36,407 nucleotides of DNA from Betaproteobacteria bacterium (GTDB lineage: Bacteria > Pseudomonadota > Gammaproteobacteria > Burkholderiales > Casimicrobiaceae), in contig VBCG01000152.1 of assembly GCA_005881895.1 (NCBI GenBank), positions 1 to 36,407 of the forward strand. The letters run 5' to 3'. This document shows, piece by piece, positions 31,136 to 33,660 of the stretch. Position 1 is the first letter of the stretch. Each line of letters opens with the position of its first letter. The notes beneath the pieces are model-generated. The model did not search any database and was not told the DNA's origin. It was given only the letters and a program-made list of their open reading frames with translations. Both the position numbers and the translations under genes were made by a program.

Positions 31136-31254
31136 ATCCTGAACCGGAATAATCCCCGATGGCGATATCGAGGTAACCGCCCTTCATGGGCCAAGCCGCC
31201 GATCGACGCCAGGAGCCCCGGGGAGCTCCAACGGAAGGGCTAGCGAGGGGAGCG

Positions 31255-32396
31255 ATGGGGGCGCACACGAAAGCGACGACGATGCTGGGCCGGGTGCAAC
31301 GCTGCGCCCGCGCCGGGCAACGCTTCGTGTTCGCAGCGGTTCTGGTCGCGCCGTTGCTGCATGCAAGCATTGCGTGCGCGGCCGACGCGTCCGCGGTCTA
31401 CCGCTTCTACAACACGCGCACTGCGACGCACTTCTACATGATCTCCGCCAGTGAACGCGACGCGGTGATTGCGCAATATCCGTGGTTCACCCCCGAAGGC
31501 GTCGCGTTTTACGCCTATACCTCGTCACAGCTTGACACGTCGCCCGTTTACCGCTTCTTCAACAGCCAGCTCGGCACGCACTTCTACACGATCTCCGAGG
31601 CGGAAAAGAATTCCGTGCTCGTGAACTACCCGGTGTTCACCTACGAAGGCCCGGTGTATTACGCGACTACGACAACGGGTGATGGACGAGCACCGCTTTA
31701 TCGCTTCTACAACACCCGGACCGGCGCGCATTTCTACACTACCAGCGCCGAGGAGCGCGACCACGTCGAGCTGACATGGGCATGGTTCACGTACGAAAGT
31801 ATCGGGTATTACGTCTACACGAGCAGTACGCCGTCGATGGGTAATCCCGGCCGCGGTAGCGTCGCAACGGCGGATGCATGGCGACTGCTCGATCAGGCGA
31901 CCTTCGGTGCGTCGCAAGGTGAAGCGGCGCGCGTACCGAGCCTCGGCATCGCGGGTTGGATTGATGACCAGTTCGCCCAGCCGGTCTCCGGCTACCCGGA
32001 TTCGAAGTACAACAAGATCCAGCTCACCCGAACACCCGACTGCACGACCACGGCGCCCGACGGCACCACCTATCCGGCGAGCTCAGCGGAAGCGATTTGC
32101 GTGCGGGATCATCTGACGCTCGCGATGCTCCAGCGCGATTTTTTCACCAACGCCGTGAACGCGCCCGACCAGTTGCGGCAACGCATCGCGTGGGCGTTGC
32201 GTCCGGCGTCGAGGGCGACTTGTCATACGCGTACGTGATGTCGCGCTATCAAGGGTTGATGTTCAAGCATGCGTTTGCCGTCGATCAAGTGGGCGCAACG
32301 CTCGGCAAATGGTTCGGAATCGCCGGCGTCGATCTCAACACGATTTTTCCCAATCTCGGCCGCTTCGCGACGGCCGATCTCGGATTCATGGCCTAG
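31255..32396 (+). pseudogene. Broken DUF5648-DUF1800 gene fused to the 3' end of a DUF1501 gene
   Basis: The ATG at 31255 follows a good GAGGGGA. A signal peptide (FVFAAVLVAPLLHASIACAA) precedes three tandem 50-residue repeats starting at V48, V98 and L148 (YRFYNTRT.THFY pattern, DUF5648-like). Then comes a DUF1800 N-terminus (DAWRLLDQATFGASQGE ... VNAPDQLRQRIAWAL). The frame runs off into RPASRATCHTRT and stops at 32238. The lost DUF1800 sequence resumes in another frame near 32199 (ASGVEGDLSYAYVMSRYQGL then MFKHAF). At about 32277 it jumps to AVDQVGATLGKWFGIAGVDL and NTIFPNLGRFATADLGFMA, the C-terminus of a DUF1501 protein. DUF1800 and DUF1501 genes are usual neighbours, so a frameshift plus a large deletion explain this remnant. 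Family names are recalled. Confidence 0.75.
31396..31830 (+). repeat. Three tandem 50-codon DUF5648-type repeats
   Basis: Units begin at 31396, 31546 and 31696. Each encodes (V/L)YRF(Y/F)N, then THFY or AHFY, a helix with SxxE(R/K), a W/F-P/A-x-FT(P/Y)E strand and a closing YYxYT. The period is exactly 50 codons between starts. Such repeats are found at the ends of secreted proteins, and their ligand is unknown. Confidence 0.75.
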
Positions 32397-32507: not shown

Positions 32508-32832
32508 CCAGGAACCTCTGAATAAGCCCCACGCGGGCGCGACAGGATGCTGGCCTGGGATGATGGCGCGAAGCAAGGCGCAGCAAATAGTAGGCGACTA
32601 TTTGCAAGCGAGATGGTCGACGAAGGTCGTAGTTCGTACTACGAACCGAGGAGACCGGCAAAGCAGACGCCGCATTCTCGCGCCAACCCCTTTGGGAGGG
32701 GCTGACCGGGGGCGCTGGCTTTGTCGCTCGGCTTGCAAATAGTCGCCTACTATTTGCTGCGCCTTGCTTCGCGCCATCATCCCAGGCCAGCATCCTGTCG
32801 CGCCCGCGTGGGGCTTATTCAGAGGTTCCTGG
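32508..32832. repeat. Palindromic element: two perfect 102-bp inverted arms around a 121-bp centre
   Basis: The left arm (32508-32609) starts CCAGGAACCTCTGAATAAG, and the right arm (32731-32832) is its exact reverse complement over all 102 bases by my reading. Within each arm lies a nested 9-bp hairpin (GCAAATAGT, 5-base loop, ACTATTTGC). The 121-bp centre has no repeat of the arms but includes a short CCCCT/AGGGG hairpin and an imperfect TTCGTA/TACGAA dyad. There is no transposase gene. ORFs through it are palindrome artefacts. I found no target-site duplication in the flanks. It looks like a MITE-type or composite palindromic repeat sitting at a deletion scar, 63 bases before the pcm start. 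Confidence 0.85.
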
Positions 32833-32895: not shown

Positions 32896-33660
32896 ATGGG
32901 GAAGACAAAACTTCGGATCGCACTCGCCGCGTTCGTGGCGCCGCTTATCACGCCTTTTCAGGCGACGCCGGCAACCGACGACGACTTCAACCGCGAGCGG
33001 CAACGGATGGTCGTGGACATCGCGGCGATGGCGAAGTCGACGAAGCGCGAGACCGGTCGAGAGCGCTTCGCGGATCGTGTCATGGACGCGATGGCGAAGG
33101 TACCGCGCCATCGCTTCGTGGCGGAGACGGCGGCACGTTCCGCTTATCGCAACGAGCCCCTCCCCATCGGGGAAGGGCAAACGATTTCGCAACCGTACAT
33201 CGTCGCACTGTCGACCGATTTGCTCGATCCACGGCCTGAAGATGTCGTACTCGAGATCGGCACCGGCTCGGGTTATCAGGCAGCGGTGCTAAGCGAGCTC
33301 GTCAAGGAAGTCTATTCGATCGAGATCGTCGAGCCGCTCGGCCGTTCTGCGGCGGAACGACTGAAGACGCTCGGCTATCGCAAAGTCGAAGTACGCATCG
33401 GTGACGGCTATCAGGGATGGCCCGAGCACGCGCCGTTCGACGGCATCATTGTGACGGCTGCCGCGCCCTTCATTCCCGAGCCGCTCATCGAGCAACTCAA
33501 GACCGGCGGGAAAATGGTGATTCCCGTCGAAAGCGGGGGCGGAGGACAGCAAATGCTGCTGGTGGAGAAGCGCGCCGACGGCACGATCGCAAAGCGGGTC
33601 GTGCTGAATGTGGCCTTCGTACCGATGACCGGAAAGGGTATTCAAGAACGACGGCGTTAA
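32896..33660 (+). CDS. pcm: Protein-L-isoaspartate O-methyltransferase with signal peptide
   Basis: This 254-aa SAM-dependent methyltransferase repairs isoaspartyl residues by carboxyl methylation. Motifs: VPRHRFVAETAARSAYRNEPLPIGEGQTISQPY, SAM-binding VLEIGTGSGYQAAVLSEL, YSIEIVEPLG, and IGDGYQGWPEHAPFDGIIVTAA with KTGGKMVIPV. The N-terminus differs from standard cytoplasmic Pcm (about 210 aa). GKTKLRIALAAFVAPLITPF then QATPA looks like a cleavable signal peptide, followed by a 40-residue charged helix. The ATG at 32896 has GGAGG 5 bases upstream; an alternative ATG at 32866 would not remove the hydrophobic segment. Export would be odd for a SAM enzyme. The palindromic element lies directly upstream. 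Confidence 0.9.
   Translation: MGKTKLRIALAAFVAPLITPFQATPATDDDFNRERQRMVVDIAAMAKSTKRETGRERFADRVMDAMAKVPRHRFVAETAARSAYRNEPLPIGEGQTISQPYIVALSTDLLDPRPEDVVLEIGTGSGYQAAVLSELVKEVYSIEIVEPLGRSAAERLKTLGYRKVEVRIGDGYQGWPEHAPFDGIIVTAAAPFIPEPLIEQLKTGGKMVIPVESGGGGQQMLLVEKRADGTIAKRVVLNVAFVPMTGKGIQERRR

Follow-up and report, generated by a model that had tools for sequence, protein, structure and literature searches.

How does a locus without a transposase come to carry a long inverted repeat that contains no mismatch? We asked this of a 36,407-nt contig from a genome labeled Betaproteobacteria bacterium (hereafter the window, meaning the whole stretch of DNA analyzed), in which an earlier note, made from the letters alone, had described a perfect 102-bp inverted repeat. 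A repeat search of the window reproduced its coordinates, length, and identity: the left arm (32508-32609, + strand) and the right arm (32731-32832, - strand) are each 102 nt long, are 100% complementary and enclose a 121-nt center. A nested 9-bp hairpin (GCAAATAGT..ACTATTTGC) is present in both arms, as had been noted, at 32583-32605 in the left arm and 32735-32757 in the right arm. A chance origin of the arms is ruled out, as a perfect match of 102 bp far exceeds chance. Three open frames that overlap the element gave no Pfam match at E values up to 1, in agreement with the reported absence of a transposase. The flanking bases, TCCA and TGGC, differ from each other, so that here, as reported, no target-site duplication is present.

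The mobile element proper runs from GGAACC to GGTTCC at 32511-32829 (319 bp, GGAACCTCTGAATAAG to CTTATTCAGAGGTTCC). The three bases outside it on each side, CCA and TGG, lengthen the inverted repeat of the window. Searching the draft genome to which the window belongs (4.29 Mb, 260 contigs) with this element returned partial matches on three other contigs, and full copies beside that of the window were found in contigs C41 (334 bp), C95 (280 bp), and C130 (273 bp). Since the same type of end and the same interior recur in these three copies and in relatives, we interpret 32511-32829 as a copy of a MITE. It is short and non-coding, has terminal inverted repeats (TIR, GGAACCTCTGAATAAG) and lacks a transposase, and the family is present at several loci, with four full copies in the window's own genome and many in some relatives. 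The earlier proposal of a MITE-like mobile family, with similar ends elsewhere in this genome and in relatives, is thus upheld. Judged by the ends and interior that it shares with the family, the window element is a non-autonomous MITE of the IS5 family. In the same genome (G000), a solitary GGAACCTCTGAACAAG end was also seen at C83:43723 (L013) and C141:102 (L015), in near-identical stretches at contig ends. By eye, a rubredoxin-like gene follows in C83 and an apparent further insertion sequence in C141; this assembly may combine strain variants.

To describe the distribution of the family, we combined three scans. Family matches were found in seven of 61 genomes, the window's own included (six of 60 relatives). 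In these seven, chosen for their prior match, we counted forward and reverse occurrences of a 16-base end pattern at ≤1 mismatch, with the reversed pattern as control. There were 18 forward and 17 reverse matches in G029 (control 0 and 1), 17 and 16 in G031 (control 0 and 0), 6 and 2 in both G000 and G034, 5 and 3 in G052, and 1 and 1 in both G020 and G013 (controls 0 and 0 throughout). A scan of 84,980 species for both ends at a spacing of 220-250 recovered 22 contigs from 13 genomes; it overlaps the set of relatives, agreeing with it for G029 and G031, and identical sequences were counted once. The carriers, with labels as recorded, were Betaproteobacteria metagenome-assembled genomes (MAGs), a Rhodocyclales MAG, a Nitrosospira MAG and two Nitrosovibrio strains, together with Gynuella, Thiomicrorhabdus, Gammaproteobacteria, Mariprofundaceae, and Acidobacteria MAGs; for the MAGs, binning errors may have affected some labels. 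Among 399 genomes drawn from the order, a strict spaced pattern matched one, which is a low bound since this pattern scored 0 in the window's own genome despite its four copies. Distant blastn searches returned no plasmid-borne family copies. In the Thiomicrorhabdus genome (G065), the end was matched 35 times forward and 34 times in reverse at ≤1 mismatch. Nitrosovibrio strains Nv6 (L117 4622-4893) and Nv4 (L127 5942-6214) agree with each other in the 12 bases on either side of the element, which suggests that this insertion is older than the split between the two strains.

We assembled 63 distinct members using end patterns in which each end could carry ≤2 substitutions. The loci had themselves been retrieved mainly through ends of this kind, so that diverged ends are under-represented among the members. 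The copy in C95 was entered by hand (indel), and two entries at L142, of 99 bp and 154 bp with a common right end, are each counted. Most members (42 of 63) are 260-289 bp long. Longer copies also occur: those at L129 and L152 (346 bp) exceed the usual length, and three copies in G029 (L169 70-488, L170 83-516, and L171 83-503) are 419-434 bp long, with an additional GC-rich insert of ~150 bp at an apparent hairpin tip.

The assignment to IS5 rests on the insertion target and on complete insertion sequences with the same end. Identical 4-mers border 29 of the 63 members on both sides, and 27 of these 4-mers are YTAR, which is the published IS5 duplication motif (as given in excerpts of PMC10359306). 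Counted singly, 85 of 126 family flanks are YTAR versus a background of 0.67% in nine loci. The family thus shows both the duplication and the target expected of an IS5-derived MITE. The window copy, between TCCA and TGGC, does not, and an exact YTAR duplication is absent at all four full copies of its genome. Complete insertion sequences (IS) lie at L165 11110-12305 and, in the opposite orientation, at L166 724-1919. One end of each, GGAACCTCTGAACAAGTC, is identical to the family end over 18 bp, and each is flanked by CTAG/CTAG or CTAA/CTAA duplications and contains a 324-aa transposase frame. The L165 transposase matches NCBIfam IS5_4 (NF033581) at 349 bits (cut-off 140) as well as Pfam DDE_Tnp_1 and DUF772. 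Related IS with one similar end were present at L159 1368-2540, flanked by CTAA/CTAA in a Rhodocyclales genome that also carries the MITE, and at L102 166-1343, where the flanks, CTAG and TTAG, are both YTAR and differ from each other. Unlike the MITE, these IS are 1173-1196 bp long and encode a transposase of 323-327 aa, and the second end in L165, L166, and L159 is of the GGAAGGTCTGAA type. The outer ends that had been called IS-terminus-like and left without a family can now be placed in IS5 by the 18-bp end, the YTAR duplication and the IS5_4 transposase. The MITEs would be moved in trans by IS5-group transposases that recognize GGAACCTCTGAAYAAGTC. Since we detected no IS5-group transposase in the window's own genome, its MITE copies may be stranded.

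IS5-type MITEs as such are already known. The nearest described relative that we found is MITEPsy1 of Pseudomonas syringae pv. phaseolicola (excerpts of PMC3189936), a 100-bp element without a transposase that was shown to transpose in vivo, probably originates from the IS5-family ISPsy2 according to its authors, and makes a 4-bp CTAG or YTAA duplication; well conserved copies were reported only in P. syringae. Its ends, GGAAGGTCTGAAAAAGCC and GTATCCTCTGAAAAAGCC, are close to the GGAACCTCTGAAYAAGTC of our family. The window element is nevertheless not a MITEPsy1, as it is 319 bp long and its interior is colinear with the 280-bp C95 copy, so that only the ends and the type of target agree; most members of the family are likewise well over twice the length of MITEPsy1, and the excerpts of that report describe neither a two-hairpin cloverleaf nor long perfect arms. 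Elements of about the size of MITEPsy1 (89-99 bp), with similar ends, occur at L142 1501-1599, L150 1420-1518, and L164 7514-7602, bordered by identical TTAA or CTAA duplications. MITEAba12 of Acinetobacter (excerpts of PMC6382973) is also short and non-autonomous with short imperfect terminal repeats; it is linked to ISAba12, and a resident IS is presumed to mobilize it. It differs in length (113 bp), in its 9-bp duplication, and in that the IS tabled with it have ends of the GGCTTTGTTGC type. Among the matches listed in searches of the open-access literature by end sequence, IS5 MITE, structure and host, there was no description of a family of ~270 bp whose two-hairpin fold is conserved among distant bacteria.

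To define how a normal member folds, we aligned 14 sequences representing the 34 members with lengths of 255-290 bp; the measure of identity by which they were selected yields 0.60 on shuffled sequences. The RNAalifold consensus contains one terminal stem, two long hairpins (A and B) and a 2-pair stem between the hairpins. Standard pairs fill 90.7% of cells over 70 pairs, and both sides have changed in 50 of these. The covariation score was 0.466 versus 0.158 in shuffles and at most 0.123 with partners slid, although part of the excess over the slid versions is expected because the structure was derived from the same 14 sequences. We also compared close relatives, using 19 disjoint pairs of members at 80-98.5% identity. 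In these comparisons, 25 base pairs had changed on both sides yet remained paired, a one-sided change had broken 61, and a two-sided change had broken 10; the corresponding ranges with partners slid were 4 to 7, 104 to 123, and 4 to 11. Under this consensus model, the two-hairpin fold is preserved over both short and long times. Preservation need not imply an RNA function, since template switching can yield compensating changes in a single step (excerpts of PMC8794818). Palindromy of the whole element was rejected as a family trait, with z above 3 in just 19 of 42 members.

The window copy departs from this plan. Measured from GGAACC, its perfect terminal repeat spans 99 bp, compared to 3-25 bp in the other 62 members. 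The long perfect arms on which the earlier note built its case are not a feature of the family, as only one of 63 members, this copy, has them. We aligned the element with its nearest copy, that in C95, a normal member of the same genome. Positions ~32608 to 32829 (+ strand), which include the right arm, are colinear with C95, and we interpret this stretch as the native part of the element and the right arm as its native end; ~65-70 bp within the left arm match nothing in C95. When we compared the interior of the left arm with both halves of nine chosen relatives, it was closer to the reverse-complemented right half than to the left half in eight. In a wider test of 50 members, the right half fitted better in 36, the left half in 12, and two were ties; among the 17 members most similar to the native part, the right half fitted better in all. 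Right-half and left-half scores were 70 versus 23 for C95 and 90 versus 21 for L022. The 12 contrary members are mostly distant with low scores either way, and include L008 (25 versus 19) and L112 (29 versus 28). As orientation in the 50-member test was set by the native part, which favors the right half, we place the weight on the low left-half scores of near relatives.

The colinear remainder, together with an interior that matches the inverted right half, makes it probable that a copy of the right end has overwritten the left end. We therefore interpret the left arm, with its nested hairpin, as an inverted copy of the right arm, in which the same hairpin forms the tip of hairpin A. Our preferred reading, which we hold with reasonable though not full confidence on the strength of these alignments, is that the window copy is an IS5-family MITE whose left end was replaced in this way, most likely by template switching, to leave identical arms. 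The suggestion that recent copying or conversion lay behind the identity of the arms was thus probably right. The arms differ at 0 of 102 positions and the element differs from its nearest matches by ~10-20%, so overwriting, as reconstructed from this one copy, would be younger than the split between copies. If the word length of the assembler was below 102 bases, the orientation of the center would not be fixed, and only the names left and right would swap.

Hairpin B was examined for traces of the replacement. Its tip hairpin, CGTAGTTCGTACTACG, is retained at 32628-32643 and is colinear with C95. The inner half-stem, CGCCGCATTCTCGCGCCAACCC, lies at 32668-32689 (+ strand), and its original partner strand seems to have been replaced. 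The local match score of the half-stem was 16 in the window copy, compared to 29 in C95, 34 in L023, 29 in L125, 24 in L005, 19 in L022, 14 in L008, L035, and L031, and 12 in L025; the duplex energy was -27.5 kcal/mol, with 27 of 50 members stronger. An orphaned half-stem thus failed as proof of overwriting, since the half-stem still pairs within the range of relatives, and this outcome slightly lowered our confidence in the reading. A TGCAAG motif, considered from C95 as microhomology at the junction, was dropped because L023 and L025 have GAATGCGAGACG there. The overlap at the inner junction is ~2 bp (GC). With up to four candidates scored per genome, we found no relative that carries the same insertion before the change, whether as an empty or an unaltered site.

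According to the overwriting model, the MITE inserted first and the left end of the window copy was replaced later. The replaced part would have comprised the terminal repeat and the distal half of hairpin B (~60 bp), and the replacing copy would be the inverted outer right end, consisting of the terminal repeat and the distal half and tip of hairpin A (~100 bp). The most likely route is a template switch during DNA synthesis at the imperfect terminal repeats, followed by copying of the opposite arm to just beyond the tip of hairpin A and a switch back, which would create two perfect arms in one step. We favor template switching because it fits a copied tract that begins in the terminal repeat and stops at a hairpin tip. 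There is precedent for template switching that perfects inverted repeats (excerpts of PMC8794818 and PMC8604942): in quasipalindrome mutations, imperfect repeats become perfect in one step as one arm is copied onto the other (these excerpts and those of PMC7202029). Unlike those mutations, the tract in the window is ~100 bp long, lies inside a mobile element and changes the size of the replaced arm.

We weighed three other explanations. One is that the repeat arose during assembly, either because the arms of a normal or slightly imperfect element were merged in the graph or because two MITE loci were joined at a common end; the identity of the arms, or the pairing of the flanks, would then be unreal. 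The genome is a draft, and contig borders typically fall at repeats; in addition, the window copy lacks a target-site duplication, and matches to pcm and the downstream transporter gene lie on different contigs in G002, G015, G021, G038, G041, and G046. However, a plain fold-back chimera would run into the flank, and the repeat ends 3 bp outside the element on both sides. The earlier note had proposed searching this genome with the arm. With the element as query, related copies appeared on other contigs, yet the 102-bp arm was found at no second locus of the assembly, the other genome matches being 80-89% identical. We consider an artefact unlikely.

These identities also bear on a second explanation, in which the left end came from another copy, either by homologous recombination with a similar MITE in the opposite orientation or by a transposase pairing like ends of sister copies. 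The family is multicopy, and both ends of a member appear to be of a type that one transposase could recognize. What makes exchange between copies less likely is that the search turned up no second copy nearly identical to the arm: matches elsewhere in the genome are 80-89% identical, compared to 100% over 102 bp for the right arm of the element itself. As the genome is an estimated 96% complete, such a copy could be absent from the assembly. We rate this origin as quite unlikely.

The third explanation, that the long hairpin was selected as an RNA or DNA device such as a terminator or processing site upstream of pcm, is highly improbable: the fold is stable (energy z -31.5, 30 shuffles) and, should pcm begin at the ATG at 32896, the element would be 66 bp upstream of it, but promoter-like sites numbered 0, terminator-like sites one weak example (shuffle average 0.3), Rfam gave no family at its cut-off, and no relative had a MITE match adjoining a pcm match among up to four candidates scored per genome. 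A known structured RNA was also rejected, as the best Rfam match in this stretch of the window, the viral Rev response element, reached 21 bits (E 0.0003) against a cut-off of 104 bits and probably reflects the long GC-rich hairpin; ten loci gave no Rfam match at the curated score. No role in pcm expression or other host function of the element is indicated.

The element had also been linked to a gene-fusion scar beside it. The scar itself is real in comparison with two relatives, G009 and G008, but its junction, at ~32276, is ~235 bp from the element. Neither a part of the element in the deletion nor its insertion at the scar is supported, as the last part of the second gene and some intergenic DNA lie between the junction and the element start at 32511. 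At 31186-32396, the start of a DUF5648-DUF1800 gene (Pfam) is fused near 32276 to the end of this second gene. The piece of the second gene had no Pfam match in 32097-32393, and we take that gene to be DUF1501-like. The two pieces are ~2.5 kb apart in G009 and G008, so a deletion likely produced the fusion. The reading frame of the fused gene seems to be shifted near 32205.

Thus, the window copy is one member of a little-known IS5-type MITE family and was probably altered by a single later copying event. A broader reading, which we offer tentatively and regard as possible rather than probable, is that the cloverleaf MITEs of ~270 bp form a widespread, structure-conserved family in which, across proteobacterial classes and perhaps also in Acidobacteria, the two-hairpin fold has outlasted the sequence. 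Recurrent template switching from arm to arm, rather than selection on RNA, would then maintain the fold and may even have founded it, and the window copy would show in a recent case how the hairpins of the family are made and repaired. If overwriting of the left end is the correct account, the window copy separates two sources of inverted repeats: the short, imperfect ends would date from insertion, and the long, perfect arms from copying at a later stage. A caution would follow as well, as covariation in mobile hairpins can stem from template switching and need not prove that the RNA has a function.
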